Positions 4,618 to 42,319 of a stretch of DNA of 64,000 nucleotides are shown here, piece after piece (within the stretch, counting starts at the first letter, position 1; each line of letters starts with the position of its first letter). The position numbers and the translations under genes were made by a program. The DNA lies in assembly GCA_907163375.1 (NCBI GenBank), contig CAJQUW010003148.1, forward strand, positions 558,001 through 622,000, given 5' to 3'. The stretch comes from Prostheceraeus crozeri (taxonomy: Eukaryota > Platyhelminthes > Polycladida > Euryleptidae). Below the pieces are notes generated by a model. That model had not been told where the DNA came from and did not search any database. It saw only the letters and a list, made by a program, of their open reading frames with translations.

Positions 4618-6545
4618 AGTAGTAAGCCCGTGGCAGGCGCAAGTCCAAAATGTGAAATGCTGACTCATCCCCCCTCTGGAAGGAAGGTGAGGGAGAGCGC
4701 CAAGGATGTGCTGGGAGGAATGGGTCCGAGAGGAGGAAACGGGTCCCTACCCCCCTCCCTCTGGAAGGAAGGAAGGAGTTTTCCGGTAAGGGATGGGAAG
4801 GAAGGTGATAGGAATGTGGGCAGGATAGAGTTGGAAAAGGGTGGGTGTTGATGGTTTTGGGATGAGAAAAGTTGGAAATCGTCAAGAAGGAGGGTTTGGA
4901 TGTGAAAGTGGAGTTTAGATTTGGAATCTGCGTGAAATTTTGGGAAACTTCTTCCCAACTCAATCGGAGAGAAAAAATTTCGAGGACGTTCCCCCTCCTG
5001 TCAAACTTCCAACTTTGGTGTTAGAGATCGTAGAAAGTCGTGCAATAGCTCATTTGAAAGCTGAGAATGAGAAAAATGCAGTGGAAAGCTCAGTTTGGTC
5101 TAATTTTCTTGGGTTGAGGGAGGAAAATGGCAGGAAAACGTCAGAGTTGGAAAAGTCCGGTGTTGGATGTTTTGGGATGAGAAAAGTCGTTTTTCGACAT
5201 GAAGGAGACCTCGGATGGGAAAATGGAGGCCAGATTCGGAATCTACGTGAAATTTTGGGTCTAGAAACTTCTTCCCAACTCAATCGGAGAAAAAAAATTT
5301 CGAGGACGTCCCCCCTCTGGAAGGAAGGTGAGGGAGTAGGCCAAGGATGTGCTGGGAGGAATGAGTCCGAGAGGAGGAAACGGGTCCCTACCCCTCCCTG
5401 GAAGGAAGGAGGAACTGTGAGGCAAAGGTTAGGAAGGAAGGTGATAGGAATGTGTGAGGGATAGAGTGAGGAAAGGGTGGGTGTTGGTGCTGTTTCGGAT
5501 GAGAAAAGTTGGAAATCGTCATGAAGGAGGTTTCGGATGGGAAAACGGAGTTTAGATTTGGAATCTGTGTGAAATTTTGGGTGGGGAAGGAAGGCGGGAG
5601 GAGTTTTCCTGAGAGGCAAGGGATGGAGCGTCAGAGTTGGAAAAGGGCGGGTGTTGATGGTTTTGGGATGGGCAAAGTCGTTTTTCGTCATGAAGGAGGG
5701 TTTGGATGGGAAAACTGAAGCCAGATTCGGAATCTACTTGAAATTTTGGGTTAGGAAGGATGTTTCCAGCAATTTGGAGAGAAAAAATTTCGAGGACGTC
5801 CCCCCTCCCTCCTGTCAAACTTCCAACTTCAGACTTGGTGGTAGAGATCGTAGAAAGTCGTGCAATAGCTCATTTGAAAGCTAAGAGTGAGAAAAATGCA
5901 GTGGAAAGCTCGGTTTGGTCTAATTTTCTTGGGTTGAGCGAGGAAAATGGCAGGAAAACGTCAGAGTTGGAAAAGTCGGGTGTTGGATGTTTTGGGATGA
6001 GAAAAGTCGTTTTTCGGCATGAAGGAGGTCTCGGATGGGAAAATGGAGTGCCAATTCGGACGTTCTGGCCAAAGTTGGGTCTAGAAACTTCCTTCCAGCT
6101 CAGTAATGGGCAAAAGACCGTTCCAGGACACCATAAAATTCAAAAAAATAGTATCTTTAAAAACGACATAAATTCATGAATTTGAACCCGTTTTCAGGTT
6201 ATTAAGACTTAAATACATGAATTTAGTCCATTCAAAAAGTACCATTTTTTCAAAAAATTGCATTTTTAAAAACGACTAAATTCATGAATTTTGGTCAATT
6301 TCTCAGGTTATGAAGACCTAAATTCATGAATTTATGACGTTTTTAAAAATACCCAATTTTCAAATTTTTCAAAATCTCAAATTTGTGATTATGACATTTT
6401 GCTCCCAAAATCATGACCGTTCCAGGACACCGAAAAAATCATAAAAGTTAAGAATCTCAAATTTGTGATTATGACATTTTTCATTGCTTAAATCATGACC
6501 GTTCCAGGACACCGAAAATCATAAAAGTTGAGAATTTCAAATTCA
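4618..6545. repeat. Polinton left terminal inverted repeat
   Basis: The outer part (4618-about 6105) matches 31513-32345 reverse complemented. The inner part (about 6106-6545) matches 22835-23357 reverse complemented. The outer part is longer than its partner because it restarts near 5311 with the GGAAGGAAGGTGAGG segment already seen at 4678, a partial internal duplication. The inner part is AT-rich, with ATTCATGAAT palindromes and three copies of GACCGTTCCAGGACACC (6116, 6415, 6497). Proline- or glycine-rich open frames in this repeat are compositional and probably not genes. Confidence 0.9.
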
Positions 6546-6608
6546 TGAATTTTATCCATCTTTCAGGTTTTTAAAATATATCATGTGACTAAAAATATTT
6601 CTTTAAAA

Positions 6609-7307
6609 ATGGAAGAAACAAAAGTGGAAGAAACCGCAAGAATATATCCTTCGTTATCATATGAACGTAGTTCTACTTTAATGGACATTGAAAAAATGAA
6701 TAAAGAAAAACACAAAGATAGAGTACGTTATATGAAAGATAAGGAATCTCAATTATTATTAAGATTAGAGCATTATAAAAAAATAAGAAAGAGATGGACT
6801 AAAGTTAAGAATGTAACACAAGGAATTGGCATATTCTTAACAATAAGTTTAGGCGCTCTCACTATTGTTATATCTTCTGGTGTTTTAGTAATTCCATCAG
6901 TTCCTACAGCTTTAACAGGTACGGGTGTTTTTGCAACTTCACTTGTTACAATGTTAGATAAATCTTTAATAACTAAGAAACGAAAATCATTAAAAACTAA
7001 GCATTTACATATTAAAGAAGTCTATGACAAATTGCATTACTACTTTCAAAGAGTATGTGATGATAATGTTATTACGTTAGATGAGATTGAAAAATTTGAT
7101 CAAATAGCTAATGAAGTAAATCAAATATCATTTCAATTACAGTCAGACAAAGTTGATGATAAGAATAAACAGGATGGCAAAATTTCGAGTGATGGTAAAA
7201 CTTTTAGTGATGGTAAAATTTCTAATGAAGAAAATGATAAATTTTTTTTAGAAGAGCTAAAAACTTTAAGCGAAAATTTAAGCAAAACTTTATTAAACAA
7301 AACTTAA
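6609..7307 (+). CDS. Predicted membrane protein of the Polinton
   Basis: 232 residues from the ATG at 6609, chosen because it has the TTTAAAAATGG context shared by the element's genes; an in-frame ATG eight codons upstream lacks it. A lysine- and glutamate-rich N-terminal third (coiled-coil-like, about 25-65) precedes a long hydrophobic segment (about 72-115) that could form a membrane hairpin, followed by a basic KKRKSLKTK patch. Near the C-terminus SDGK occurs as three near-tandem repeats (about 195-212). I do not recognise a named family. Polintons often carry an accessory membrane protein at this end, possibly virion- or entry-related (inference). Confidence 0.7.
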   Translation: MEETKVEETARIYPSLSYERSSTLMDIEKMNKEKHKDRVRYMKDKESQLLLRLEHYKKIRKRWTKVKNVTQGIGIFLTISLGALTIVISSGVLVIPSVPTALTGTGVFATSLVTMLDKSLITKKRKSLKTKHLHIKEVYDKLHYYFQRVCDDNVITLDEIEKFDQIANEVNQISFQLQSDKVDDKNKQDGKISSDGKTFSDGKISNEENDKFFLEELKTLSENLSKTLLNKT

Positions 7308-7428
7308 AACGAGAAACCTTTAAACGAAAAGATGTCAGACAACAAAGCAATAAAAAAATAATTTGTTCAGTAAAATGTTTTTGTTGTATTCCAATGTTAC
7401 CACAAAATTCAAATATTATATTTTAAAA

Positions 7429-8253
7429 ATGGATAAAATTAGAGCTGATAATCAAAAAAGAATTAAACAATTAGAAGAGTTAATGAAACAAAGAAATATT
7501 ATGAAAGAAAATCATCTTCAACATAGAATGATAAAAGCTGGTATTCAATCTGATATGTTTGAAAAAATGCAGCAAACCGAGCAAGTAAAAACTGATTTCG
7601 AGAAAACTATGAAACCATTTAAAACTCTTGAAAAAGAACTTACAAATAATGATAAACAAATTGATATAACAGATCCAGAGCACAAAACTATATTAGATGA
7701 CTATGGATTACTAGAATCAAACATTAATAAGAAATTACCAAAATCTATGCAATTTGAACATTCTATCTCATTTATAGATGGAAAAACAATACCTAGATTT
7801 TATCTCGGACAAAAAGAAATATTTCCACAACCTTTTCGAGGTTTAATTTTTTCACCAGATAAATCTCCTTTTAATTTAGATAGAAATTTTGTTGATCTTT
7901 TAAGAGGAGCAGATTTAAATAATTATGCTGTAGAAGATCTCATAAAATATAAAGCTATGTTAGATAGAGTTGGTGCAGTAAAATCTCTTAGACGTTATAA
8001 ACAATTAGAAAATTTATTATCATCGGGAGTTAAAGTAGGAAAAGGTTTATCTGAAAAACAGAAAACAGAAAAAACTGTATTCTTACCAGATGATCCACAA
8101 GAATTACTAAATAGATTAAATATTTTAATATCGGCAATAAAAGAAGGACATAATTCTAGTTTCAATGAAATTCATGCTATATTGAAAAGACTGTTAGAAA
8201 AGAAGATTCTAAATGAAGAGGATTATAAAAGTATAACGAACCGAATGTTCTAG
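7429..8253 (+). CDS. Conserved Polinton protein of unknown function
   Basis: 274 residues from ATG 7429 (context TTTAAAAATGG); the frame is open 22 codons further upstream but without that context. The N-terminal third is highly charged and probably coiled coil. A central segment (LDRNFVDLLRGADLNNYAVE, then a run of YKAML type) and a C-terminal helical pair (ISAIKEG...NEIHAILKRLLEKK) resemble, from memory, an uncharacterised protein found next to capsid genes in many animal Polintons. The last codons and the stop (8251-8253) lie inside a mini-hairpin repeat, which may have replaced the original end. Function unknown; a structural role is inferred from position. Confidence 0.7.
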   Translation: MDKIRADNQKRIKQLEELMKQRNIMKENHLQHRMIKAGIQSDMFEKMQQTEQVKTDFEKTMKPFKTLEKELTNNDKQIDITDPEHKTILDDYGLLESNINKKLPKSMQFEHSISFIDGKTIPRFYLGQKEIFPQPFRGLIFSPDKSPFNLDRNFVDLLRGADLNNYAVEDLIKYKAMLDRVGAVKSLRRYKQLENLLSSGVKVGKGLSEKQKTEKTVFLPDDPQELLNRLNILISAIKEGHNSSFNEIHAILKRLLEKKILNEEDYKSITNRMF

Positions 8254-8378
8254 GGCTTCGCCCGTAGCTGAAATATGTTGTTTCTAATTTTTATCTATGA
8301 TTTTTATTCATGATTTTTATCTATGATTTTTATCTACGATTTTTATCTATAATATTTATTCAAAATTTTAACTAAAAA
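8253..8378. promoter_or_regulatory. Intergenic spacer with T-rich repeats upstream of the penton gene
   Basis: After the hairpin repeat at 8238-8263 the spacer holds four or five copies of a 12-bp unit of type ATTTTTATCTAT (8288-8350). It ends CTAAAAA just before the start codon and could carry the gene's promoter. No direct evidence for a transcription start. Confidence 0.35.
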
Positions 8379-9167
8379 GTGTGTTCAGCAGATTTAGACA
8401 AAATTAATAATTATTTAGAAAATCTAACAGAGATTTTGGGTTCATCAAAATTTAGTACGACGTTAAAAATTATAACAACTACTTCATCACACACTTGTAA
8501 TTTAGAACCCATTCTACATTTGGAACAAAATAAAAATTATCAAATTGCATTGACTAGTTTCTCTACATTTAACACTATTCAAAACGTTATCAAAGATGTG
8601 AATGATCAATTTAGATATTCTACTGATAAAGGCAAAACATGGAAAATACAAACTTTTCTTCCTGGTTCTTACGAAGTTGAATCAATATCAAATGAAATTA
8701 AGAGACATTTAGGTATACCATTTAAAGATAAGAAACAATTACATTTTGCAGTTGAACCGGCAGTCAATAAATTTTCTCTTACTTTAGACGAAAATCATCA
8801 AGTTGATTTTAATCATGATAGATCATTGTCAAAGCTATTAGGATTTAATAAACAAACCTATAGTCAAGGTTATCATTTAGGTGAGAAGATTCCAAAAATA
8901 ACTGAAATAAATTCAATTGTTGTACATTGTGACATTATTGAAGGAGGATATATAAATGGTAAATTGTCAAATTTAATATTCAGTTTTCCAGCTTTTACTG
9001 TACCCATTGGTTATAGATTAAATGTAATTCCACAAACATTAACATATTTCCCTATTACAAGAAAAACTATTAACAACATTAACATGAGAATCACTGATGA
9101 GAAAGGACAAGAAATAAATTTTGGAGGTGAAGAGATTATGATAGATCTTTTGGTTCGGGAGGTATAA
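8379..9167 (+). CDS. Penton-like minor capsid protein
   Basis: 263 codons. The C-terminal third carries the pattern I associate with the Polinton minor capsid (vertex) jelly-roll protein: FTVPIGYRLNVIPQTLTYFP, then an ITDEKGQEINFGGEEI loop before a final beta strand. It would form the pentameric capsid vertices together with the major capsid protein. The start is odd: where other genes in the element have AAAAATG, this one has AAAAAGTG, and no in-frame ATG lies near. Either GTG is used or the start has been lost by an A-to-G change. It lies between two other plus-strand genes, consistent with a structural block. Confidence 0.65.
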   Translation: MCSADLDKINNYLENLTEILGSSKFSTTLKIITTTSSHTCNLEPILHLEQNKNYQIALTSFSTFNTIQNVIKDVNDQFRYSTDKGKTWKIQTFLPGSYEVESISNEIKRHLGIPFKDKKQLHFAVEPAVNKFSLTLDENHQVDFNHDRSLSKLLGFNKQTYSQGYHLGEKIPKITEINSIVVHCDIIEGGYINGKLSNLIFSFPAFTVPIGYRLNVIPQTLTYFPITRKTINNINMRITDEKGQEINFGGEEIMIDLLVREV

Positions 9168-9250
9168 ACTCCCACGCGAAGCTAGAGAAGTTTAATTAAC
9201 TTCTTCTTCTTTAAAAATAAAAATAAAATAATAAATTTTTTTATTAAAAA

Positions 9251-9988
9251 ATGAGTGAACTACCCCCATTAAATAAAAAGAAACTTAAATTTAATCATCA
9301 TCCAAATTTATCTAATAAAGTTTTGTCAGTTATTTGCGGAAGATCAGGTTGTGGAAAAACATATCTATTATTTAAAATTTTAACGACTCCAAATTTTTTG
9401 GATTATAACAATCTTATAATTTATACAACAACAGCAGAACAACCCGTCTATCAATTTTTAAAATATGGATTTGAAAATAATCTTAAAAAAACAGCAATTG
9501 TTTCATTATTCAAAGAATATGAAAAATCTGAAGATGAAGAAGAAATAAGTTCGTGGTGTGAAGAAGCAGCAAAAAATAATCAGTTAGTTGAATCTAATAA
9601 AAATTAGCATATAAAGATACAATTAATCGATGATAGTGGTAATATGCAAGATCCTAGTAAACTAGATAAAACAATGAAACATTATGTAATTTTTGATGAT
9701 TGTGTTAATGACAGAAATCAGTCAGTTCAGAGAAATTATTTCACAAGAGGTAGACATAATAACTGTAGTGTATTTTATTTAACACAAAGTATGTATTCAT
9801 TAGACGGAAGTGTTATTAGAAAGAATGCAAATATATTTATACTATTTGAAATAAATGCAAGAAACTTAAGTGATTTGTTAAGAGATCTATGTGTAAGAAA
9901 TAAAGATGAATTTAAACCATCGTGTAACAATGCTTGGTCAAAAGATTATGGCTTCATTACAATTAATATTGATAAAAAAAATTCATGA
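9251..9988 (+). pseudogene. FtsK/HerA-type genome-packaging ATPase, interrupted by an in-frame stop
   Basis: Starts at 9251 (context TTAAAAAATG). The first part has Walker A GRSGCGKT (about residues 31-38). After an in-frame TAG at 9605-9607 the same frame continues to 9988 with the Walker B segment HYVIFDDCV and a sensor-like FYLTQS motif. The family packages DNA into capsids in Polintons and related viruses. The stop separates Walker A from Walker B, so neither half alone should be active. With an intact frame the protein would be about 245 residues, normal for the family. Single-base nonsense mutation or sequencing error is likelier than readthrough. Confidence 0.85.
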
Positions 9989-10105
9989 TAGAGTTATAGA
10001 ACATTTGTTTACCGAGTGATAAAAAATATACAAATATTGTGTTATAATATTTTTTATTTTTATTTTATGTATATATCAAATTTGACTATCTTAGAAATTA
10101 GAAAA

Positions 10106-13100
10106 TTAAAAAGGTGAAGTAGTTATTCCATCAGGTAAAATTTTTCTTTTATCATCAAATGGATCTAATGCTAATTTATGTTCTTCTTTTAAATACATGT
10201 TATGTTTTTTTGAATTAAGTCTATAATTACATGCTGTTTTTATTTCATTATTAAATAATACGTTTTTATAATCTTGAAATGTCATTTGATTAGCCACTGA
10301 TGCCTTTGAAATTCCTTTTAATGTTTTATGTGTTTTAATATTATTAGTTGTGTTATAACAATAACATTTAGATTTTAAAAATATAGCTTCTGTTATGAAA
10401 TCTTCATTTCCTTCTAATTCATCTTTTACTTTACATAAATCAGAAGGATGAATGATATCTTTTATTTTATCTATTTCTTCATCAAGTGTAGAATTATACG
10501 GTATTGTTAATTCTAAGAAAACAGAATCGGTATCTGTAAAGTGTAATTTATAGTTTTTGCCATAAGCAGGTGCTAAATAATCATATATAAATCTATACAT
10601 AAATAGTTTAGCTAATTCTAATATAGTGAATCCTATAAAATTAAACTTATCATGTTTTACGCTGATTCGACGTAAATGTACAGCACATAGTTCATCACTA
10701 AATCTAGTAGTTCTTTTATATGTAGGTTTCCTTGTTAAATTTTGAAACCTATCTTTATCATAAACTATTTCAATATTTTGTCTATTACGCACATTTTCTA
10801 AAGTCTTACCATAAAATGCATTATTCATTAATTTGAAGAACACGTTTCCAAAATCATCTTTATTTCTTTTAGCTATTTTACGTTTTTCAATATAGAACTC
10901 TATATAATCTTTTAACCACCTAGATTTTCTATACACTAGTTTCCGGTGAATTTTTGTGAGAATCATTCCATGATCTAAATACCAATCTAGCATTCTTCCT
11001 TCAACAACATACTTTCCTTTATCGCTTTGTGTTGACATAAGTTTTTTTGTTGGTCTGTATTTCTTAGGAATTATAGATTTTTGATAATCTGAAAAATCTT
11101 CTATATTGGGAATTTTGTTTTCGGGACAGAAAGGAAAATATTTTGTTTTATCTTTTATTTCATCAGGATATACTAAATCAACTTCATATATATAACCATG
11201 ATTATAATTTCCATCATATGTTTTTTGATAATCTAGAATATTACACCATGACATTTCACCTGTTGGTAATTCTTGTATCATGCAAGAAGAATATAAGCTA
11301 TTAAAATCATTATATAACAAATAGTTTTCTCTCATGAATTCATCAATTGCATTTTCACGTTCTACTCCTTCTCCTTTCGTTCGAAAAATTTCTAATATTT
11401 TTTCTTTTTCTTCTGGAGATAAAGGTTTCATTATTCCATAATCATCAGGATTTACTTTTTTATTGTAACACTGTACGTAACGATTACCTAAAACTGATGA
11501 AACACCACTTCTAATCCCAGATTCAAAAAATTATAATTTATCATATGTATTTTCTTTATAATGTTTAAGTTTAACGGACTTTGTCCTATAGCCATCGGCT
11601 TGAACACCAGTATGTTTTAATCCTGCTAACCATGTTAAACCTGGTGTAGAATAACAATAACATGGATCTATTCCATAATATTCTAAACACATATCACGAA
11701 AGTTTTCAAAAAGATCAGCAAGGATTAATACATCTATCTGAAGATATTTCATTGTATAATCATACATTGTTCTACAATTTAACTCTCTCCAATTTTTTTC
11801 AGCTTCTGCATAGTCTTCTTCAGATAATTGTGATTGTTTTAATGTTGATGTAAATTTATTTATTGGAGGAAGTTGTTTTTCTTCCATAATTTTAGTCACA
11901 AAATTAAAATCTCCAGTTGAACCAGTCTTCGACTGTGAACCACAGGTTAAATATTCATACGGAAATATTCCTTTCAAAGGTTTAAAATCATATTTATTTA
12001 ATATTTTACATTGTTCAGATTTCAAAGTTTTTCCCATAACATCTAATGAATAAGGAGTAAAAAATCTAAATGCATCTAAAATTCTAATACAACCTAATTG
12101 CATTGAAAAATATTCTTCTTCTGTTTTACATAGTACATTTATTTGTTGTTGTTGTAATTTTTCAGATGAAAATAAATCTTTCATTACTAGATGGAAATCA
12201 TATTTAGAACCATTGTAGAAATATAGAGGAACAAAGTTATATTTAAATTTATTAGCATTAAGATTACAAGAATTATGTGCTGCACCTCTATATAATCCAT
12301 TTAGATGATCATGATCTTTTACCTTATCAAGATATCTACCTTTGCCATTTTTATAATTTTTTGTAAATTCTTTTCCACAGTAATAACAATTTGTTTCATT
12401 AATAAAATTTAATTTTTCTTTTTCTGTTAATGGCATCATTGATATATTTGTTTCAAGCAATTGTGAAAAATAATTTTGTAATTCTTCTACTTTCTTTGTA
12501 AACATTTCTGAACTATCTTCACCATAGTATTGATAATATTCTGATTTAAATAATTCAGGATAATTTGAATGAATGTACATTCCCCAACATAATGGTTTTT
12601 GTTCAAATAAATATTTTTCTTTACTTTGTTCAGCTGCACTTTTTTCAGAATTATCATTTTCAGAATCGGGCGAAGCCCTGGAACTTTCCGTTCGATTTTG
12701 TGTCATATTAACATTATATGCTTCAAAATCACAATAAATAGTAAAGGGTACTTTATTTTTGAAATACCATTTATTGTATTCTAAGTAATCATCTTTAGGA
12801 AAAGTATTTTCAACTGCTTCATTTTGTTGACAATTCTCCAAATGTCTATTCATTTCTTCTTTAGTTCTAAAACTTGTCATACATTGAAGACAAGGAAAAT
12901 TTGTATTATCTGAAGTTTTTGTAAATATAGAAACATCTTTACACAATATAAAATGACCCTGATAATATAATATATTCGCTTGTGCTGGTTGTTTTGTCTG
13001 TTCTAGTTTTTCAAATTTATCTTGATATATTTCATGTGTTTCATCAATTTCTTTTGTAAGATTGAATGTATTTCGATGATAATTTTGATTGAATATTTTC

Positions 13101-14618
13101 AGCTGTTGTTCATATTCATTATTATATTGTTCTTTATATTGTTGTTGACATTTTTTTAAACATTCATTTAATTTTTTATTTTCTTCATTATTTAATTCTT
13201 TATTGTATTTATTGTTTTTATTTAATTCTTGAATCGTTTCTATCTTATTTTGATATTTATGGCCATATTCTTGTACTAATATTTTTGTTTGTTGTTGATA
13301 ATCTGTTTTACATTTTTGTAAACTTTCATTTAAATTTTGTAATTTTTGTTGATATTCTAAAGATAAAGATAAATAATCGGAATCATGATAATAATTATAA
13401 TTACGTCCTTTATAATTATTATGATTAATCATTATTGGTGATAATGTTTTAACAATTTGAAATTTTTCAGTACATATTATATTTCCTTGGTAAAAAATAT
13501 TATGATGCATGTAATTTCCTCTATCATTATATACTATTTCTGATTGACATAAATTTTTATTATTCAAATAAAATTTTTTTGAATCTGAGTAAAGTGGAGT
13601 AATTTTACCAATAGAAACATAATTCACATTTAATTCAAAAACATTTACTTCAATTAAATTTTTATTCTTTTTATGAAACTTTATTAACCTATTATAATCA
13701 TATGGAAATTCATGTAAGCCATCAGAGAGATCAAATTCCTTTATGTATTCTTCTTTATTATAATGATTTAGTCTCTCTTTGTGATATTCTGCAGGATGTA
13801 AATGTGCTATAATACTCCACAGAAAACAATAATCATCTTCATTTTTTATGTTGATTATTTGTGGTACTGAAAGGCAAAGGAACATAACTACCACCAGTAT
13901 TATTTTTATATTTATCAATTACTATTTTCTTAGATAGTATTTTAACAAATCTCCAACCAGATTCACGTAACTGGGCTTCAATTATACAATTTTCTAATTT
14001 AAGTATCATTTGTTCAAATATGGGTTGTATATCATTTACATTATGAATTTCTTGTGAATTTGTAAAATGTCCTTGTATTATTTCTTCAGGAATTCCATCA
14101 GGTCCATTTTTTGTATAAAGTACTTCTACATTCATATAACATTTGAAAGATTTCTTAAATATTTTGAAAAAGTTTTTTAATACATTATAAAAAGTTTCAT
14201 CGGTTTCATTATGTTCAACGGGCGAAGCCCTGGAACCTTCGGTTCGAACCGATTCATTAAATAAATATTTTATATCTGTTACCGCTTCATCGGTTTTTTT
14301 AGTTTCATCAAATTCATCTATGTCGTTAAATTCATCAGTATCATTAAATAAATATCTTTCATCGGGTATGGACTCATCTTCAGTATTAAAAACTTTTTTA
14401 TATTCCGAATGTGAATAATCATCAAACATTTTTTTAACTTCTATATCAGTAGGCAATGTTTCTAGATAGTTTTTATAACTATTTAATTTTAATATATTTC
14501 CTTCATCAACTCGTTCTACATTTTGTAAATGCAATTTACTATTTAAATGAGATTGATAACTTCTTTTTGTTTGCAACTTTTTTTTACATAAGTTACAATA
14601 AAACTTGGTATTTTCCAT
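10106..14618 (-). pseudogene. polB: Protein-primed DNA polymerase B, with one frameshift and one in-frame stop
   Basis: Read leftward from ATG 14618 (minus-strand context AAAAAATGG). The N-terminus has a C2H2 zinc finger (CNLCKKKLQTKRSYQSHLNSK...H). Next comes an acidic region, a long Gln/Lys/Glu coiled coil (about 13000-13400), a second C2H2-like finger (CLQCMTSF...H...C) and a zinc-binding CYYCGKEF segment. Exonuclease motifs are DFEAYN, NGSKYDFHLVM and YLQIDVLILADLF. Polymerase motifs are DFNSLYSS, LMNNAFYGK and TDTDS. All metal-binding aspartates are present. A one-base shift lies near 13840-13870 beside an A-run, and an in-frame TAA at 11531-11533 falls between exonuclease and polymerase domains. 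Total length near 1500 residues suits Polintons. It would replicate the element from protein-primed termini. Confidence 0.92.
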
Positions 14619-14901
14619 TTTTTTATTTTTTAAGGAAAAAATTGTGTTTTAATTTTAGATATAAACATTCTAATAACAAGGTCTTGAGAGTTATTATATA
14701 TTATTATATATTCACGTTCTTTAGTTATTTTATTTTCTTTATCATATTAAGTTTAATCATATTAAGTTTTATCATATTAAGTTTTATCATCTAACGTTTT
14801 ATCAAAAGATAATTTAAATTTATTTTCACTAACTATTGATTCTTCATCATCATAAATTGATTCTTCATCATCATAAATTGATTCTTCATCATCATCATAA
14901 A

Positions 14902-16160
14902 TTACACTTTTTTCTTGATTGGATACCATTCTCTTATTGGAATATCTAACTCTAAATTACATCTTTTATCTGATAATAATATAATAGAGAAAAATATTGG
15001 TCTTTGTTCTCTTTTGGAAAATTTAATAACACCACCATAATCTGAATCACTTTTAGTTTTTATTAACGATGATAAAATTTTAAATTGATTAGATGTAAAT
15101 CCTAATTTAAATTTTGTAGACCCGACACATAGTTGTCGAACAGTATCTTCAACTATACCATCATTATTATTTTCAATTGTAAGAAAATGAAATTTAGACA
15201 AATTTTGATTATATGTAGTATTAATATCATGTACATCAGTATGAGATATAAATTTTTCTTCACTTAAATTTTTATAATTACTAATATTTTTATAATCTTT
15301 TTTAACATTTACACCTTTTTCAGATGTTTCAGAATCATCATCTATATTATCATCATCATTATTATCATCATTATTATTATAAGATTCTTTAAGATCGGGC
15401 AAAGCCCTAGAACCTTCGGTTCGTTTATTATGATTATTATTATGGTCATTGTTAATAGTATAAAGTGTTGTCCACATATAAAGTTTTTCTTGTTGAGCTA
15501 AACCATTTATATAAGATTTTAACAAATTAATATTTAAGTTTGAATATAATCCTATATATGTATCATCATCATATCTTTGGGGCATTTCTAATGTTTCTTG
15601 TTTATAAATTGTATCTCTGTAATAAACTTGACATAATAATTCTTCATTATGTTTTTTACTCTCGATATGAATATTATATTGGTTTTGATCGTCAACAAAT
15701 AATCTAATTTTTTCCTTTGAGAAAGATTTTAATTTTTAACTAATTCTTTAATATTGATATAATTAATAATTTTAGTTTCTATCCAATCAGTATCACTAAT
15801 TGGTAATACTGCTCAAATAAAACCATAAACATTATTATGACCAATAATAACCATATTTTCTTTATTTAATTCAACATAAGCTACATCATTATATTTGCCT
15901 ACAATCTCCATAAATTTTATAAACGGGTCTCCTGGAAATAAACAATAGTTAGTTTCTATAGAAGGTAAACCTTTTGTTTGTTCTCTAAATATTTCGGCTT
16001 GTAGTTGAAATAAAATATTAACATCTATACATGGATTTGTAATAGTATTATTATTATTATTATTATCAAAACATTTATTTTCAAATCCCGTTGATCTCGT
16101 CGAATAAGAAGAACAGGATGATGCGGGCGAATATAATTTTTTTAAATTTGCTTTATCCAT
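14902..16160 (-). pseudogene. Unrecognised Polinton gene with an in-frame stop and a frameshift
   Basis: Start at 16160 (context AAAAAATGG), divergent from the fibre-like gene with only 46 bp between starts, so the pair may share a bidirectional promoter. The first block (16160-15816) ends at an in-frame TGA (15813-15815). The same frame continues to a TAA near 15739, and coding-like sequence then continues in another frame to 14902. The break lies in an A-rich stretch (15725-15740). The protein is rich in Asn and Asp, with an NNDDNNDDDN tract around a mini-hairpin insertion (15397-15422) and a more globular C-terminus (QLCVGSTKFKLGFTSNQF). I do not recognise a family. Confidence 0.6.
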
Positions 16161-16206
16161 TTTTTTATTTTTATTAGAAGAAATTTTATTTTTTTATTGT
16201 TAAAAA
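16161..16206. promoter_or_regulatory. Putative bidirectional promoter between two divergent genes
   Basis: 46 bp of almost pure A/T lie between the two divergent starts, and both starts sit in the A-run ATG context. No other space is available for promoters of either gene, so a shared promoter is inferred. Confidence 0.4.
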
Positions 16207-17094
16207 ATGATGTTACCAAATGTTGGTGGAGGTGCATATATCCCGAATAATCGTGAATTAGAAATAGAGATAGAAAATTATATCATGAAAACTGGAGACG
16301 TTTTATCTGGTCCATTGCATCTTTCTATTCTTCCGCAACAAAATACAAAGTTAACAAATAAACAATATGTTGATACACAAATCAATGACTTAAAAGAAAA
16401 ATATATAAACGATGTTGTGGTTCCACTGATGAACGAATTAAAGTTGCTTAAACTTAATGACAAATCATTAAACGAAAAATTATTAAAACTTGATAAAAAG
16501 GATAGAGAGCTAGAAGCAGATATAGCAAAACTTTTTAAAAAGATTTCAGAAGAATCAAAAATTTTAATATTACTTTCTTTAAATTTAAAATCTGCAGTCA
16601 TTAAAAATAAACATCAGATAAAAATGTTAAAAGAACAATTAGAAGATGAAATAGAAAAACTACCTGAAAGAATTAAAAAAAATTTAAAGCAGTTACAAAC
16701 TACATTCCAAAAAAGTGTTGATGAATTGAGTTCTAAAATTACTCAACAAATGAAAAAGATTAATAGAATAATAAATGAAGTAAACTCACTTAATCAAAAA
16801 GTTGATAAAATGAAAACTCTTAAAATCAATTTAGAAAATGAATTAAAGAGAAATTTACAAGAAAACTCTAAAGAAAATAAAGAACAGTTAGATTCTGTTA
16901 AAAGACAATTAGATGTTCTTAAAATTAAGTTAAATGCTCTTAAAACGGCGTTGAAGATTAATAAGCAGAAAATGCAAGTTAATAGAAAAGAAATTAAAGT
17001 ACATCGCACGCTGCTTGACGCAATAGATAAAGTGCAACAATCAATTTATAAAGTTATCTCGAAGTTGTTGTCCATTCACAAACGTAAATCTTGA
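16207..17094 (+). CDS. Coiled-coil protein with a phage tail-fibre-like motif (candidate fibre)
   Basis: 295 residues, intact. A short glycine-rich head (NVGGGAYIPNN) is followed by KTGDVLSGPLHLS, and 16 residues later by NKQYVDTQI (about residues 29-60). This layout matches the repeat of phage tail-fibre proteins, where a GDxMSGPLxL segment precedes a KxYVDxxI segment that opens a trimeric coiled coil. The remainder (60-290) is nearly continuous heptad-like Leu/Ile/Lys/Glu sequence, predicted long coiled coil, ending in a basic tail. I infer a trimeric spike or fibre attached to the capsid. A cytoplasmic coiled coil is the alternative. The start follows TTAAAAAATG. Confidence 0.65.
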   Translation: MMLPNVGGGAYIPNNRELEIEIENYIMKTGDVLSGPLHLSILPQQNTKLTNKQYVDTQINDLKEKYINDVVVPLMNELKLLKLNDKSLNEKLLKLDKKDRELEADIAKLFKKISEESKILILLSLNLKSAVIKNKHQIKMLKEQLEDEIEKLPERIKKNLKQLQTTFQKSVDELSSKITQQMKKINRIINEVNSLNQKVDKMKTLKINLENELKRNLQENSKENKEQLDSVKRQLDVLKIKLNALKTALKINKQKMQVNRKEIKVHRTLLDAIDKVQQSIYKVISKLLSIHKRKS

Positions 17095-17257
17095 TAGATC
17101 CTTGTCCAGAGGCTTTAGCCTATCGGACCAAAGATTCTGAGGTTATTACCTTATCATAAACGTAAATCTTAGCGCAAATATTAAACAGACCAAAGGTCCT
17201 CAGGTTACTAACCAATCGTAAATATTTTTTCCCAAAAGTCAAATTTAATCCTAAAAA
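17095..17257. repeat. Spacer with mini-hairpin repeats
   Basis: Contains GGCTTTAGCC (17111-17120), a decayed GGACCAAAGATTC and GACCAAAGGTC (17188-17198), spaced by copies of CATAAACGTAAATCTT. These belong to the hairpin family scattered through the Polinton core. Confidence 0.6.
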
Positions 17258-17809
17258 ATGCCTATAATTTATAAACACAATCTTAAACATTTTGCTTCAA
17301 ATCAAAAAATTGCTCATGAACCACGTATGAATCCTGTTAATCATTATGATAATAGAGAAAGAGTTCACACGGAAGGAGCTGGCATCTTCTCTGGTATTGG
17401 AAGTATCGTTAACTTAATTAAAAATAATAAAGATTTGATTACATCTGCTGCAAAAGGAGCAGCTGCTATAGGTAGTACAGCTAGTGCAATATCAAATGCT
17501 GTCAAGTCTCAAAACGAATTAAAAAAACTAGAAGCTATTCGTAAACTTAGGAATGATTCCGAAGAACTAAAAAATTTAAAAAAACTTTCAGAGGAAACAA
17601 AAAATAAAATTGCTAACATAGCTGTTGGGGAAACCTTGAGGAGCGGAGCTCCGTCTGATAGTAAACATAAGAAGAAATCTGGCGTAGCCATAGAACGTTC
17701 AATTGAACCTACGGTTCGTTCAATTGAAAAAATAAGAGGAAATGGCGTGAGCAGCAACCTTCGGTTTAACCAGCAAAGCTGTAGCGGAGCTGGTCTAGCA
17801 AAATTCTAA
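17258..17809 (+). CDS. Small amphipathic capsid-associated protein (candidate pVI-like)
   Basis: 183 residues from the ATG at 17258 (context CTAAAAAATG). After a basic N-terminus comes a glycine/alanine-rich amphipathic stretch (GAGIFSGIGSIVNLIKN, then AAKGAAAIGSTASAISNAV, about 41-85) and a charged helix (86-125). This profile resembles membrane-active internal capsid proteins of adenovirus type, and the gene lies directly before the major capsid gene; both points are suggestive only. The C-terminal ~60 residues are largely encoded by mini-hairpin repeats (17640-17652, 17705-17717, 17757-17800), so that part may be a late addition. Confidence 0.55.
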   Translation: MPIIYKHNLKHFASNQKIAHEPRMNPVNHYDNRERVHTEGAGIFSGIGSIVNLIKNNKDLITSAAKGAAAIGSTASAISNAVKSQNELKKLEAIRKLRNDSEELKNLKKLSEETKNKIANIAVGETLRSGAPSDSKHKKKSGVAIERSIEPTVRSIEKIRGNGVSSNLRFNQQSCSGAGLAKF

Positions 17810-17920
17810 AATTATGTTTTTTAGTAAAATTTTTTTAGCAAACTTTTTTTAGTAAAATTATTTTAGCAGAATTTTTTCTGTGTGTGAGAAAAACAAAAAG
17901 TCCAATTATTTTTTATAAAA

Positions 17921-19200
17921 ATGTCTTCGCTTATCGAAAATAAATTTAGATTAGACGATCCTCCGTTCGTCAGTTGCAATCAAAAAAAAATGACTATATA
18001 AGAATTGCTATGAATCCCGGATCTTCCAGTAGAGTAAATACTGGAGGTGATTTAATTTTTGAAGTTGATAATCAGCAGATTTATATATATCTACCTGATT
18101 CATTTTTACACTGTGAATATTCTTTGTATAGTGATGCCAATTTTACAACACCATTACCAGAAACCGATAATACTGCACTAGAGAATAATTTTTTTCCAAG
18201 ATTATTTACACAAATGCGTTTAGATGTTGCAACTCAAAATATAGAAACAATAAGTGATTCTCCAGGTGTAATTGATACAATGCTTAGATTTGTAACAATT
18301 GGTGAAAATAATAAAAAGTATGAAATCGAAGGTTGGTTTCCTGATACTAATAATGGTATAATTGTTGATGATTTAACTCACGCTGGAACAGATGCAGCAG
18401 GAATTGCGATAGATGTAGAAAATATTGCAAAACATTTAAATAAAACAAACAATAGTGAATATAAAGAAAGACGTGAATTTAACAAGAAAAGTAAACAGAC
18501 AGTAAATTGGTCATTGTCTCCATTATTCGGATATTTAGATTATGATAAAATATCATATCAATTAAAATTTAAGTTAATAATTGATCGCACAGCAAATAAT
18601 GAATTAATCTTTTTTGGTAAGACTGGAAAAAAAGCATATTTAAAAATTGATAGACTTGAATGGTGGATTAAGCATATTACTCCTAGTTTAGAGATTGAAA
18701 CGGCTATTGCAAAAAGATTAAATACTAACAAACCAATTCCAGTAAATTTTCTAAAGCGTACTGCTAGTTCAGTAACTTTTTCCGAACAAAGATTTAACTG
18801 GCATTTTACTAGAACTGCGAATACTCCAAGATATTTATTGCTAACTTTTCAAAGAAATAATTCTCCAAGTTTTGATAAGAACAACAATCTCTTCCATATT
18901 AATACAATTCGAAGTTTACAAGTTTTTTTAAATCAAACCCATTATCCAATTGATCCATTAAGATTCGATGATACCAATAATCAATTTATGGAAGGATATG
19001 ATGCTTATAGAAATCTTTGTATAGAATTTGGAGTTGAACCACAATTAACTCCTGGAGATTGGAGACATTTATATCCTGTTTTCTGTTTCGATTTAAGTGC
19101 ACAATCTGAAGATATTATCAAGACTGGTTGTGATGTAACAATTAATATTGAAAAGAAAGATTCCACAACTTCATTGATGGCTTATGGTTTATTGCTATAA
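17921..19200 (+). pseudogene. Major capsid protein (double jelly-roll), N-terminus frameshifted
   Basis: The main frame (from about 17974 to 19200, over 400 codons) shows the Polinton major capsid pattern: an N-terminal RVNTGGDLIFEVDN region, strand-rich sequence throughout, and near the C-terminus HLYPVFCFDLSAQSED, which I recognise as the family's conserved end. It forms hexon-like capsomers. The only ATG with the element's start context (TATAAAAATG, 17921) is in another frame and reaches a stop 27 codons later. The two frames meet at a run of nine A (about 17982-17990), so one base has been lost or gained there, or slippage on the A-run is used. Confidence 0.85.
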
Positions 19201-19385
19201 GATGTAAAATATTCTATTGAAATTCTTAATGGAAAGATGGCTAGGATAGGCTAAAGCCCAAGACTTTGTCGATTAATTAATTTTTTTTCATAAGTAGAAT
19301 AGATTAAAATTTTTTGGTAACTTAAAATTTTTTCATGACTACAATAGATTAAAAATTTTCGTAACTTAAAATTTTTTTATTAAAA

Positions 19386-19867
19386 ATGTCGCAAGCGAAA
19401 AGTAATAATAGTAAAACTGTTGAATTAAAATTACGTAATATTCTTGACAAAAATACCCCTAAAACTATTACGATTAACAAAAAAAGTATTACATAAGTAA
19501 ACCAATGACCGAGAATATTCAATTACAAGAAGAAAAGAATCGCGGGATTCTCCCATTAATTCCACTAATAATAGGTGGCATAGCAGCTGCAGGAAGTGTT
19601 GCAAGTGCGACAGCTGGTATTGTCCAAGCAGTAAATAAAAATAAATCAGAGAAGGCAGCATTAGAAGAACAAAAACGTCATAATAGAGAGTTAGAGAAAG
19701 TTGCTAGTGGTGACGGAATAGTAGATAATTTTATTAGTAAATTAAAATTAGTTGATGAAGGAAAACCAGTTCTTAAAAATATTCTCCACAATGTTGATGA
19801 TTTAATTGAAATTAAAGAAACAAAAGATGGTTCTGGAATATATCTAAGTCTTAGTATGATTCGGTAA
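19386..19867 (+). pseudogene. Small hydrophobic Polinton protein, probably frameshifted
   Basis: The start-context ATG at 19386 opens only 36 basic codons, ending at 19496. The next frame (ATG 19505, poor context) gives 120 residues: a hydrophobic segment (ILPLIPLIIGGIAAAGSVAS, about 15-40) followed by a charged helix EEQKRHNRELEK. This hydrophobic-segment-plus-RHN-helix layout recurs in small Polinton proteins encoded near the capsid gene. The two frames meet in an A-run (about 19480-19487). Two separate genes are possible, but the missing start context before 19505 favours one broken gene. Role unknown; membrane interaction inferred. Confidence 0.55.
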
Positions 19868-19978
19868 TAACCTCAAGACCTTTGGTCCGATCGGCTAAAG
19901 CCTCTGAACAAGGTTCTATCGGCTAAAGCCTCAGGACCTTTGGTCCGATCCGGTAAAACATTTATTTTATCCTTTAAA
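19868..19978. repeat. Cluster of five mini-hairpin repeats
   Basis: In order: GACCTTTGGTC (19877-19887), GGCTAAAGCC (19893-19902), GAACAAGGTTC (19906-19916), GGCTAAAGCC (19921-19930) and GGACCTTTGGTCC (19934-19946). All are short perfect stems with 2-3-nt loops in otherwise AT-rich DNA. They occupy nearly the whole spacer before the integrase gene. Confidence 0.8.
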
Positions 19979-21310
19979 ATGAATTCTACAAATTCCGAAA
20001 ATTTAATTAAATTAAAAATTGCTAATTTAAATTTATTGAATTATCTATTAAACAAAAATAAAAACTCAAACTGTCAGCATATTGGAGGTGACATACAAAA
20101 AACATTAGAAAACTTTCCTGGATTTATTTGGAGTAAATATTCGAAAGAAAAACATCTTCCCGGTCATTCATATACTGGTCCAGGAACTCGATTAGATATA
20201 AGACTAGATGAGAATAATAATCCGAAACCAGGTGAAGAACCAATAAATAGAGTAGATGCCGCAGCTTACAGGCATGATTTAGCTTATCGAAATCATGATC
20301 TAAGTTCTCGACATGCAGCTGATAAGAAGATGATTCAAGAATTAGATAGTATTCAAAATCCTACATTTAGAGAAAAAATTGAAAGAATGTTTGTTAAGAA
20401 AGCTTTACAAGCTAAAATATTATTCGGTCAGGGTTTAAATGAAACGACAGCAAAGCTGTCTGAGAGCAACGCTCGAACCTACGCGTCTGAAATTCATAGG
20501 GAATACAGAAGGCCTAAATATTTATTGAAAGTAAAAGTATTTAATAAAGATGATGTTTGGAGTGCTGATCTTATTCATATGCCGAATGAAAAAGATTATA
20601 AATACGCATTGACCGTTATAGATTTATATACACGATACGCTTGGGTAAAGCCTTTAAAAAATAAAAGTAGTCTATCAGTTAAATATGCGTTTGAAGAAAT
20701 CTTTAAAGAAAGTAAGAGAAAGCCAAAAAAATTGTTTGTTGATAAAGGGTCGGAATTTTATAACCGAAACGTTCAGCCACTATTTGAAACAGACGAAAGT
20801 CATCGCCAAGGCTCAGTTTATTCAACTGAAAATGCAGGGAAGGCCGTAGTGATAGAAAGATTCAATCGGACGTTAAAAAATAAATTATTCAAGAAATTTA
20901 CTGAGCAAAGAAATCAGAAATGGTTGAAGATATTACCAGGAATTGTAGAAGAGTACAATAATAAAGTTCATTCTGGTATTGAAGAAACCCCAAAGAATGC
21001 TTCTGACGACCCTGATTTAATACGAAAGAAAATATTCGAGAATAATTATTCGAACGAAAATAATAATTTGAATGAGAGTAATCCGAATTTGCAGAAACTT
21101 AAGCCGAAATTTAAAATTGGAGATAGAGTTAGAATATTTAAGTATAAGAATAAATTTGAAAAAGGCTTCGTCGGTTACTGAACTAAAGAAATATTTGAAG
21201 TTTGTAAAATAAACCAAACTTATCCGATTACTCATGAAATCAAAGATTTAGATAATGAAGATATCAGAGGCCGTTTTTATCAAAATGAATTACAACGAAA
21301 TGAGCTTTAG
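19979..21310 (+). pseudogene. Phospholipase A2-like / retroviral-type integrase fusion, with a late in-frame stop
   Basis: Starts at ATG 19979 (context TTTAAAATG). Residues about 45-135 match the parvovirus-type PLA2 fold: YTGPGT calcium-loop-like motif and DAAAYRHDLAY with the catalytic His-Asp pair. A linker containing a mini-hairpin insertion (20446-20474) leads to the integrase core: SADLIHM (first Asp), FVDKGSEFYN (second Asp) and VVIERFNRTLKNK (Glu), all present. A TGA at 21179-21181 cuts the C-terminal SH3/chromo-like tail, but the same frame continues with coding-like sequence to TAG at 21310. The integrase would insert the element; the PLA2 domain may breach endosomal membrane (inference from parvoviruses). 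Confidence 0.88.
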
Positions 21311-21413
21311 CTTTTTAATTATCGTTATTATTATTATTATTGGAACTAACGTTTCGGAAATGAAATTTCCTTGTTAGGCGTACCGCGTAGCGCGTAGCGC
21401 GCAGCCATAGAAC

Positions 21414-21905
21414 CTACGGTTCGTTCAATTCTAACATTATATCAAGAAATGGCACTCCTTCCTGTAATTTAAATAAAACATAAAGACATAATTGACCACA
21501 ATAAGTAGTTCCCGGTTTTTGAATTTGAAATGTATTATAAATTCCATTGCCAAGTAATTTTTTGACTTCGTTTGTAGGTGGAAGTCCATAAGAGTCGAAC
21601 CAATAGTTCTCAGCCTCTGGGCGGTCGAAATAGTAATTATCTCGATTTTTATTAAAGATACCTGCAGACCAATGTACTCCTTTTTGGTCTGAAGTGTGAA
21701 GATTCGTTATGAAATTTATAGTTATTGATGGAACTTTGTTCCGGGAACTGAAGGTTCCTGTTGGCTTATTTTTTAAGAATTGTAATTCGGCTCTCATTAG
21801 AACATGAAAATTCTTTATTCCCAATTGATTTGCGATTTTCTTTAAATCGAAATTCGTCGTGGTTTGCGTTCCATATAATTTAAAAAACTCATTTATGTTG
21901 CTCAT
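21414..21905 (-). CDS. Adenain-like cysteine protease
   Basis: 163 residues from the ATG at 21905, chosen because minus-strand ATTATAAAATG gives the element's start context; the frame is open 22 codons further up without it. The catalytic set is visible: His in VHWSAGIF, acidic residue in YWFDSYG, and Cys in YCGQLCLYVLF, in the order of adenovirus/ULP1-type proteases. It should process capsid precursors during maturation. A mini-hairpin pair (21731-21758) is inserted in frame in the N-terminal half. Another hairpin (21410-21422) supplies the final codons and the stop, so the original C-terminus may be changed. Converges on the integrase gene. Confidence 0.88.
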   Translation of the reverse strand: MSNINEFFKLYGTQTTTNFDLKKIANQLGIKNFHVLMRAELQFLKNKPTGTFSSRNKVPSITINFITNLHTSDQKGVHWSAGIFNKNRDNYYFDRPEAENYWFDSYGLPPTNEVKKLLGNGIYNTFQIQKPGTTYCGQLCLYVLFKLQEGVPFLDIMLELNEP

Positions 21906-21945
21906 TTTATAATTAAAAAAATTTCTTATAGGGATCCCTAGAAGA

Positions 21946-22068
21946 CAGAAGGGAGGAGGTATTGATTTCAAACTGTTCTCTAATGATGTCTTTCCTTACT
22001 ACTTAGTCAGAAGGGGGGGTATTGATTTAAAACTGTTCTCTAATGATGACTTTCCTTACTACTTATTC
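21946..22068. repeat. 62-bp tandem duplication
   Basis: Two nearly identical copies (21946-22007, 22008-22068), each starting CAGAAGGG and containing ATTGATTT and ACTGTTCTCTAATGATG. It lies just upstream of the protease gene and could affect its promoter. Confidence 0.8.
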
Positions 22069-22834
22069 GATTTTGAAATGATTTAATTTAATCTAAATTA
22101 AAACGTTACATTGTTACATTTTATTTTCATGAACTCTCATTAAGGGATATTGTTTGTTTTATCTGTATTAAGACAATGGCAACATCTGTTACCACATTTC
22201 TCAAACCGCATGATTGTTTTAGGGGATCATACGGGTTGTGCATTCATAACATGGCGTTAATAGCATAAAAGCAATCTATTAATTCATTCTCTGCTTTGAG
22301 GGAATATTCTGTTGTTATAGCAATCATTCAATACAATATTGCAGTATCGATAGTCGAGACCAATTGTCGAGCCAAAACCGCAACTTTTCTGGTTTTGGTT
22401 TCCGATCTGGCTCGCGTTATGGCCGATGAAATGATTTACAATGCGGTGCAATTTCCTCATTTTCATTCAAGTACATACGCGTCATGTCATACCCATATGT
22501 TGTCAAGCAAACTTCATTGACCTACAATGCCGCTTTGCTTAGATCACCATTCATAAATTTCACTTACTATTTAAACACACACACAATTCATAAAACGTGA
22601 CGCATTACAATCTTAGTTTAAATTTTATCATCACAATGGTTGGATCTACTGAAAGATCTGTTCGATTGGAGACAAAGCGGAGAAGAATTCAGAAGTTAAC
22701 AAGGGAAATCATACATCTGCAAGCACAAAGTAAAATATTCTTACACTTGGATATGAGAAGAATTTTTGAATACATCGGAGACCCGCACATCAATTATAGG
22801 ACATGATTTAAGAGGGAGAAAAAATTGTAATTCT
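22069..22834. other. Gene-poor stretch inside the right end of the Polinton
   Basis: No supported gene. A short frame near 22597-22806 encodes a basic helix-like peptide without a recognisable motif or the element's start context. CCAAAACC...GGTTTTGG near 22373-22400 forms a small stem. Confidence 0.55.
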
Positions 22835-23357
22835 CAAATTTGAAATTCTCAACTTTTATGATTTTCGGTGTCCTGGAACGGTCATGATTTTAAGGGTGAA
22901 ATGTCATAATCACAAATTTGAGATTCTTAACTTTTATGAATTTTCGGTGTCCTTGAACGGTCATGATTTAAGCAATGAAAAATGTCATAATCACAAATTT
23001 GAGATTCTTAACTTTTATGATTTTTTCGGTGTCCTGGAACGGTCATGATTTTGGGAGCAAAATGTCATAATCACAAATTTGAGATTTTGAAAAATTTGAA
23101 AATTGGGTATTTTTAAAAACGTCATAAATTCATGAATTTAGGTCTTCATAACCTGAGAAATTGACCAAAATTCATGAATTTAGTCGTTTTTAAAAATGCA
23201 ATTTTTTGAAAAAATGGTACTTTTTGAATGGACTAAATTCATGCATTTAGGTCTTAAAAACCTGAAAACGGGTTCAAATTCATGAATTTATGTCGTTTTT
23301 AAAGATACTATTTTTTTGAATTTTATGGTGTCCTGGAACGGTCTTTTGCCCATTACT
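22835..23357. repeat. Polinton right terminal inverted repeat, inner part
   Basis: Reverse complement of about 6106-6545, including ATTCATGAAT palindromes and GGTGTCCTGGAACGGTC repeats. It is cut off from the outer part of the same repeat by the 8.15-kb palindromic insertion. Confidence 0.9.
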
Positions 23358-42276: not shown

Positions 42277-42319
42277 TTGGAAATCATAGTCATAAACAGT
42301 TTCCTTTCATTTGACATTT

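Follow-up and report, generated by a model that had tools for sequence, protein, structure and literature searches.

What are the short, GC-rich hairpins that recur, often in pairs, within a Polinton of the flatworm Prostheceraeus crozeri? The window analyzed here, a stretch of 64,000 nucleotides (nt) from assembly GCA_907163375.1 (contig CAJQUW010003148.1, positions 558,001 to 622,000), carries this Polinton at window positions 6102–23357, and an earlier sequence-only reading had noted that many of the hairpins are inserted in frame within its genes. Comparison of Polinton copies and a search of the whole assembly suggested that the hairpins are, in all likelihood, ultrashort mobile palindromic elements living in Polinton DNA. 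Their being a mobile element is the part we put forward with the greatest confidence, and the limitation of their movement to Polinton DNA is a somewhat probable addition. Comparison of copies documented insertion with short target repeats, dispersal to unrelated sites, nesting, swapping of hairpins, and a Polinton location in all sampled cases.

Hairpins were present at all places cited by the sequence-only reading, and they were commoner than in shuffled sequence. GC-rich hairpins with stems of at least 4 pairs and loops of 3–5 bases numbered 24 in positions 6600–21905, versus a mean of 3.2 and a maximum of 8 in 200 shuffles. Three-base loops carried the main excess (22 versus 1.28 expected, with a maximum of 4 in 100 shuffles); hairpins with loops of 4, 5 and 6 bases numbered 2, 1 and 2 versus about 1 each in shuffles, and those with loops of 7, 8, 9 and 10 bases were in mild excess (3, 4, 4 and 6 versus about 0.9), only the 6 exceeding the shuffle maximum. 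Double hairpins with three-base loops occurred seven times in the core versus 0.03 expected, with lengths of 25 nt (once), 26 nt (five times) and 29 nt (once). The left flank contained no such double hairpin and the right flank contained one versus 0.85 expected; the right flank showed a general mild excess of hairpins (75 versus 44), but without this family.

The pattern GGGC-NNN-GCCC / GAACC-TTC-GGTTC, designated family A, was found with up to three mismatches at four places (8238 on the minus strand, and 12668, 14220 and 15397 on the plus strand), whereas 0 were expected from 100 shuffles. Several families are present, which have their geometry in common and differ in stem sequence (GGGC/GAACC, GGAC/AGCC, CAGTC/AACC, AACC/CAGC, GACAGC/GAGC and GACC/GGTT). 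The fold energy of the isolated single strand was just modestly better than that of shuffled sequence for several elements, a weak test for units so short that alone would not make the case, and Rfam and tRNA scans returned no match.

In order to compare individual sites, stretches of 20 Polinton copies were used, selected through a family A match that corresponds to the copy at 15397 or resembles it; not all of them align everywhere. In the comparison that the sequence-only reading had proposed, hairpins were present in some Polinton copies and absent from others at identical positions in the polymerase, protease, pVI-like and other genes. Orthologues that keep the residues without the DNA hairpin would have spoken against insertion, and it was found instead that residues and DNA were absent together. 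Of 24 filled/empty pairs tested, 17 were exact, four had base changes near the junction and three were not located. The insert measured 30 nt in the 21 located pairs, except for 31 nt at 8238, 39 nt at 21729 (two pairs) and 29 nt in one 14371 pair with base changes; counted by site, 10 of the 12 sites with an exact pair had a 30-nt insert. Direct repeats of 2–5 nt (AAC, ATC, TATAT, AT, AC, TAC, CA, TAGC, GTC, GTT and GTA) flanked the insert in 15 of the 17 exact pairs, representing 11 of the 12 sites. A random indel would, by rough estimate, show at least two matching bases perhaps once in four to six cases, and the repeats are therefore not attributable to chance. At 12668 and 17680 only a 2-nt duplication fits, which gives a unit of 28 nt. 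Most coding indels of at least 18 nt, in the 45 aligned pieces out of 60, held a hairpin, and those at 14286 and 21041 were without one. Changes of length in AT-rich spacers were separate from the hairpin indels.

These junctions also bear on the explanation that each hairpin was built in place by template switching at small quasi-palindromes, with no mobile unit. Perfect short stems are the expected product of template switching, a 9-nt difference near 17696 resembles hairpin growth or shrinkage, and hairpins have been swapped at 12668 and 8238. However, the same GC-rich 28-mer occurs at many unrelated AT-rich sites, where local templates cannot supply it, and the near-constant insert size and flanking direct repeats make template switching hard to hold for families A and C; as a general account of the hairpins it is very improbable. 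The sites are listed below; handles beginning with L denote other copies, and counts refer to aligned rows.

8237–8264, minus strand: family A double hairpin that closes gene 7429–8253 and gives it its stop codon; 31-nt insert, repeat GTA; 2 of 23 rows empty (L153, L156).
11575–11602, plus strand: family D double hairpin GGAC-TTT-GTCC / AGCC-ATC-GGCT in the polymerase gene; 30 nt, repeat AAC; 5 rows filled and 8 empty (13 rows, site 11576).
11923–11948, plus strand: family C double hairpin CAGTC-TTC-GACTG / AACC-ACA-GGTT in the polymerase gene; 9 rows filled and 3 empty (12 rows); other Polinton copies have a second family C copy at about 11909.
12667–12694, plus strand: polymerase gene, with a family A element that encodes RTESSRASP; flanking repeat AT; 13 rows filled, two of them with a different second hairpin, and 1 empty (14 rows; L095).
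14219–14246, plus strand: polymerase gene, with a family A element that encodes RTEGSRASP; flanking repeat AA or AAC; L007, L038, L041, L043 and L049 have the site empty.
14280–14282, plus strand: empty site in the window, with family A in L017, L022, L041, L043 and L049; repeat TAC (pair L049/window).
14367–14369, plus strand: empty site in the window, with family A in L007, L008, L017, L022, L038 and L049.
15396–15423, plus strand: family A element, the GGGCAAAG variant, encoding RTEGSRALP within a gene of unknown function; this element served for the selection of copies.
17100–17213, plus strand: spacer hairpins AGGC-TTTA-GCCT, then GACC-AAA-GGTC / GGTT-ACT-AACC.
17627–17655, plus strand: hairpin GGAGC-GGA-GCTCC, which encodes GETLRSGAPS in the pVI-like gene; L109, L117 and several database relatives have the site empty.
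17680–17721, plus strand: element GGCGTAGCC-ATA-GAACCTACGGTTC in the pVI-like gene, altered in the window; in L109 a 28-mer with CA as its repeat; L119 and others have the site empty.
17756–17785, plus strand: double hairpin AACC-TTC-GGTT / CAGC-AAA-GCTG that sits inside an older hairpin; insert of 30 nt with TAGC as its repeat; L101 has the site empty.
19249–19258, plus strand: GGC-TAAA-GCC, a single hairpin in the spacer that follows the capsid gene.
19870–19956, plus strand: hairpins GGACC-TTT-GGTCC and GGC-TAAA-GCC in a spacer; a variable array of units of about 30 nt.
20446–20474, plus strand: double hairpin GACAGC-AAA-GCTGTC / GAGC-AAC-GCTC in a single frame, where it separates the PLA2-like from the integrase domain; 23 exact units, and no empty site seen among the 97–100% alike copies shown.
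21390–21422, plus strand: hairpins between the convergent integrase and protease genes, with GAACC-TAC-GGTTC at the protease end.
21596–21623, minus strand: decayed family A-like element in the protease gene, adding RPEAENYWFD; 30 nt, repeat GTC; empty in L121, L124 and L137.
21724–21759, minus strand: protease gene, with a double hairpin insert that encodes GTFSSRNKVPS; length 39 nt, flanking repeat GTT; L121 and L136 have the site empty.

The sequence-only reading had proposed that the hairpin at 8238 supplies the end of its gene, and in the two copies lacking the element the frame does continue, ending at a TAA within a few more codons; elsewhere the site is occupied by a variant in which one hairpin has been exchanged, or by a tandem pair of units. 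Its list of hairpins was accurate and incomplete: the polymerase elements at 11576–11600 and 11923–11948 and the decayed protease element at 21597–21623 had been overlooked, and the spacer hairpins at 19877–19946, though present, belong in part to the variable array. Three insert positions were variable among 20 rows of the pVI-like gene, one of them nested in an older hairpin, and among 11 rows of the protease gene the 21600 site was empty in three and the 21729 site in two. In the segment 14150–14420, nine rows were aligned (the window and eight copies, picked for a family A element somewhere near); sites 14218, 14282 and 14371 were filled in 5, 5 and 4 rows, the remaining 4, 4 and 5 rows being empty, and the combinations were mixed.

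Further inserts were seen where the window has none. Five Polinton pieces have, at the equivalent of 12323 in the polymerase gene, a 24-nt insert with a 6-bp stem (GACGGC-AGA-GCCGTC), a shorter kind of hairpin. Twelve Polinton pieces have a 36-nt hairpin-bearing insert at the equivalent of 17363, near the start of the pVI-like protein, and database relatives have a 12-residue extra peptide at this place. The terminal repeat of L004 (window equivalent 6331) has a 28-nt element of another family, CGGCTAAAGCCAGAGGAGCTTCGCTCCG, with AT on both sides.

A search of the host genome for the double hairpin, which the sequence-only reading had suggested, found 7241 exact copies of family A in the assembly (2,048,925,868 bases), together with 2694 of family C and 1163 of family D; reversed-pattern controls for the three families had 0 matches each in the whole assembly. 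Forty-eight loci were taken around listed family A places, in the first contigs of the listing, and contained 53 exact matches, 51 of them distinct (L004 and L005 overlap). All 53 were in, or at most 250 bases from, Polinton sequence with 75–96% identity to the window. Family A was found with the same sequence in Polinton terminal repeats and at sites 8238, 12668, 14218, 14282 and 14371, and of the 76 units tallied 30 had an identical core, spread over several sites and in differing backbones, which is partly an effect of selection by exact pattern. Families C and D recurred, among the matches listed, at similar spacing and seemingly in the polymerase gene.

Such numbers could also be expected of a miniature inverted-repeat transposable element (MITE) or similar element of the host, moved by a host transposase and hitting Polintons by chance. 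The hairpins are short, non-coding and present in many copies, with a short and often A/T target repeat, as is the case for several DNA transposons. However, all 51 distinct family A sites were in Polintons, even though carriers would be only about 6% of the genome if each of the 7241 copies had one 17.3-kb Polinton; in addition, the flanks of the Polinton within the window contained no family A element. A host MITE is a highly improbable source of these elements. Inspection by eye showed no terminal repeat beyond the hairpins.

The effect of the elements on proteins was then considered. At 12668, 14218 and 15397 family A is read in one frame without stops, giving similar peptides as had been noted earlier; the commonest family A form holds a TAG, but in another frame. 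A literature search for the peptide EGSRASP found nothing, and a Glomeromycota origin of the peptides was considered and set aside. Inserts inside genes were mostly multiples of three, and genic insertions keep the frame and, where read, add stop-free, hydrophilic peptides. Database relatives provided independent agreement: hairpin-coded peptides were present or absent at the same places in 16 relatives of the pVI-like protein. Among nine close relatives of the protease (P0041–P0049), GTFSSRNKVPS or a near version was found in two, and RPEAENYWFD or a near version in two. In the structure model of the protease, the two inserts fell in the blocks (51–60 and 91–100) with the lowest predicted local distance difference test (pLDDT) values, 52 and 60, of an otherwise fairly confident fold. 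P0001, the closest relative of the capsid protein, shows a gap of one residue; in more distant relatives the loop indels are longer and span 10–20 residues in some cases (a comparison of proteins only). Distant proteases (P0052, P0064, P0066 and P0091) show different additional segments, which are located at the start, at the same loops or close to them, and some of which are repeat-like (SPKEPLRG). These segments hint at similar inserts in other Polinton groups, as far as protein sequences can indicate.

Hairpins inside genes are reportedly the hallmark of elements in Magnusiomyces mitochondria that the ribosome is said to bypass, and the Polinton hairpins might likewise be untranslated inserts. 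In the Polinton, however, bypass is unnecessary: genic inserts are mostly multiples of three and are stop-free at 12668, 14218 and 15397, and the 31-nt exception at 8238 sits at the end of a gene. Of all the explanations considered, ribosome bypass is the most improbable.

Hairpins were also found at several gene ends (8238, 17110, 19249, 19877 and 21390–21422), which raised the possibility that they are transcript-end or poly(A) signals. According to the excerpted text of PMC4402537, Mimiviridae transcripts receive their poly(A) at palindromes that form hairpins but have no fixed sequence, so that signals defined by structure only are known in giant viruses. Nevertheless, in the GC scan neither the polymerase gene (ending at 10106) nor the 14902 gene had a terminal hairpin, many copies are located mid-gene, where a transcript would be truncated, and sites can be empty. 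A transcript-end role was dropped as a full explanation because of the mid-gene copies and the gene ends without a hairpin, and it is quite improbable as the basis of the family; a secondary role for spacer copies is possible.

The carrier of these mobile hairpins and two of its genes are described as follows.

6102–23357, no strand assigned: Polinton carrying the hairpin elements; 17.3 kb, with the 6-bp direct repeat CAGCTC at 6096–6101 and 23358–23363.
17974–19200, plus strand: double jelly-roll capsid gene, identified by domain match; no GC-rich hairpins of the element kind.
21414–21905, minus strand: adenain-like protease, with both inserts in the two lowest-confidence stretches of its structure model.

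The carrier has the features of a Polinton: a double jelly-roll capsid, an rve integrase, a protease, a PolB polymerase recognized by motifs only, terminal inverted repeats and a 6-bp target repeat. The terminal inverted repeats were read in the sequence and also found by BLAST. Domain matches identified the capsid and, in one frame, the PLA2-like and rve integrase domains, and there were weak ATPase and endonuclease VII-like matches. The best match of the protease in PDB was adenovirus protease (E 1.1e-4), with a model pLDDT of 84.6. The polymerase pieces contain DFNSLYSS, NNAFYGK and TDTDSV, which we take to be PolB motifs, and had no polymerase match in Pfam, PHROGs or PDB. An endonuclease VII-like domain was matched in the polymerase piece 11531–13918 (minus strand) by PHROGs (9.4e-05) and, below the cut-off of that database, by Pfam (0.0011). 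The window copy looks decayed, since polymerase and integrase are spread over more than one frame. GC content is about 23–32% in the Polinton core and mostly 33–47% outside.

Other features of the Polinton and its surroundings were noted. A unit of about 21 nt containing GAGGTATAAACTCCC forms a tandem array at 9150–9190, at the end of gene 8379–9167, and its copy number differs among Polinton copies, including L144, L155 and L158. The flank of the Polinton contains a Bcl-2-like frame (42277–42933), which together with the size of the assembly points to an animal host, and a retroelement reverse transcriptase frame is located at 35148–36356 (minus strand). Stretches at about 25450–26260 seem, by eye, to be repeated inverted at about 28100–28960, forming a large fold-back around a small frame (27189–27653) within 25400–29000.

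How such elements might move can be outlined from their structure and junctions. The usual unit is about 28 nt, consisting of two perfect GC-rich stems of 4–6 bp with 3-base loops and 2–4 joining bases; entry at a staggered break would duplicate 2–3 target bases, giving 30 bases, or ten codons. Protein-primed strand displacement is established for related polymerases. The elements presumably move while Polinton DNA is being copied: strand displacement would expose long stretches of single-stranded DNA, hairpins folding on these would be cut and pasted by a nuclease acting on junctions or hairpins, and the Polinton integrase would then distribute the filled copies over the host genome. Against a simple use of this integrase for moving the elements themselves stands the Polinton repeat of 6 bp, compared with 2–3 nt for the elements. 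The moving form would be DNA and not RNA; an RNA route, which the excerpted text of PMC4478555 discusses for yeast mitochondrial GC clusters, may nevertheless operate. In its fullest form this reading describes a hyperparasite, that is, hairpin DNAs of about 28 nt that transpose only in Polinton DNA by means of Polinton replication or junction-cutting enzymes, their size and duplication being tuned to ten codons so that a viral genome dense in genes can be filled with those genes left intact; we offer it tentatively, its chances being a little short of even.

A number of points weigh against these conclusions. The evidence is entirely comparative, no movement having been observed, and filled/empty ratios are biased at most sites, the copies having been chosen for a family A element. 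Two exact pairs had no repeat (14282, L043/L038; 14371, L038/L002), with a base difference beside each site. A duplication of 2 nt is not separable from one of 3 nt at most sites, so that the unit is 28 or 27 nt, and hairpin inserts of 39, 36 and 24 nt depart from the size rule. The confinement to Polintons rests on 51 of 7241 family A copies, from the first contigs listed, and many copies at one site represent amplification of the Polinton and not as many jumps. The enzyme is a candidate only: that the endonuclease VII-like domain of the Polinton's polymerase protein is the mobilising nuclease is doubtful.

Further such points are shared with the explanation that the insertions are old and have no current mobility, multiplying today only through the Polinton itself and through recombination between its copies. 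Most copies at each site probably do derive from common descent, and family D looks, among the places listed, like a one-site element. At 11909 and 11923, about 12 nt apart, 12 rows contained neither element (1), the first only (2), the second only (3) or both (6), and these four combinations could be due to recombination or precise loss. On the other hand, the identity of the family A core across several sites in differing backbones, in part a selection effect, and the occurrence of both filled and empty states at each of 14218, 14282 and 14371 favor elements that still move, and an exclusively old origin is unlikely.

How the ultrashort palindromic elements of organelles and bacteria move is unsettled. 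Such elements would now be found in a new carrier, a Polinton of an animal genome, with a ten-codon unit, and the thousands of copies, clean filled and empty sites and single carrier with few enzymes narrow the search for the mobilising activity. The hairpins also show how viral proteins can acquire new segments of ten residues, and they could mark when Polinton DNA replicates or recombines outside the chromosome; if the hyperparasite reading is true, they are a minimal parasite of a parasite.

Searches for relatives in viral contigs and prokaryote genome contigs found none, the double-hairpin pattern and that of family B each having 0 matches in these collections, and the polymerase piece had no match among phage records. 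One relaxed double-hairpin match, in the GC-rich contig L001, was judged from its sequence to be a chance match. A paper on hairpins of sponge mitochondria (PMC2800124) contained none of the terms sought in it. The carrier belongs to the Polintons/Mavericks, for which no description of hairpin elements was found in a literature search covering titles and abstract starts of the papers listed, with subscription papers and preprints mostly outside it.

Among known systems, Mimiviridae signals resemble the hairpins in that structure is conserved without sequence at some gene ends, but, as described in the available portion of PMC4402537, those signals end transcripts, whereas many of the hairpins are mid-gene and optional. 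Yeast mitochondrial GC clusters such as GC42 (42 nt in the main family), as far as the excerpt of PMC4478555 describes them, are likewise tiny GC-rich palindromes of an AT-rich genome with presence/absence between strains, short direct repeats, and merger and shuffling of hairpins. Their flanking repeats are AG or ACT, in contrast to AT, AAC, TAC, CA, GTC and others here, and they are mitochondrial and mostly intergenic, whereas the present elements are often genic and reside in a nuclear virus-like transposon. A mitochondrial location does not apply to the window, in which the Polinton has retroelement and Bcl-2-like frames in its flanks and belongs to a contig at least 622 kb long.

Mitochondrial double-hairpin elements were originally reported from Allomyces. 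The fungal elements have two adjacent GC-rich hairpins per unit and several copies, and are considered potentially mobile; they are mitochondrial and mostly intergenic, with some in rRNA genes (in the excerpted text of PMC10085805), unlike the thousands of copies in frame in Polintons.

Rickettsia palindromic elements (RPEs), to which the sequence-only reading had likened the hairpins, are also found inside open frames without destroying them, their peptides being placed in solvent-exposed positions. The portion of PMC3767692 consulted gives them as 100–150 bp in bacterial chromosomes of Rickettsia and Wolbachia, with orthologues that all have the insert at the same locus, compared with 25–29-nt double hairpins and clean empty sites in a genome of about 2 Gb. 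The likeness therefore holds for behavior, namely in-frame insertion, and not for size (about 28 nt versus 100–150 bp), and the mitochondrial elements are structurally closer. Membership in the known systems fails because compartment, target repeat or size differ; on the best reading, the Polinton hairpins, while a member of none, work like mitochondrial GC clusters and double-hairpin elements and reside within genes like RPEs.

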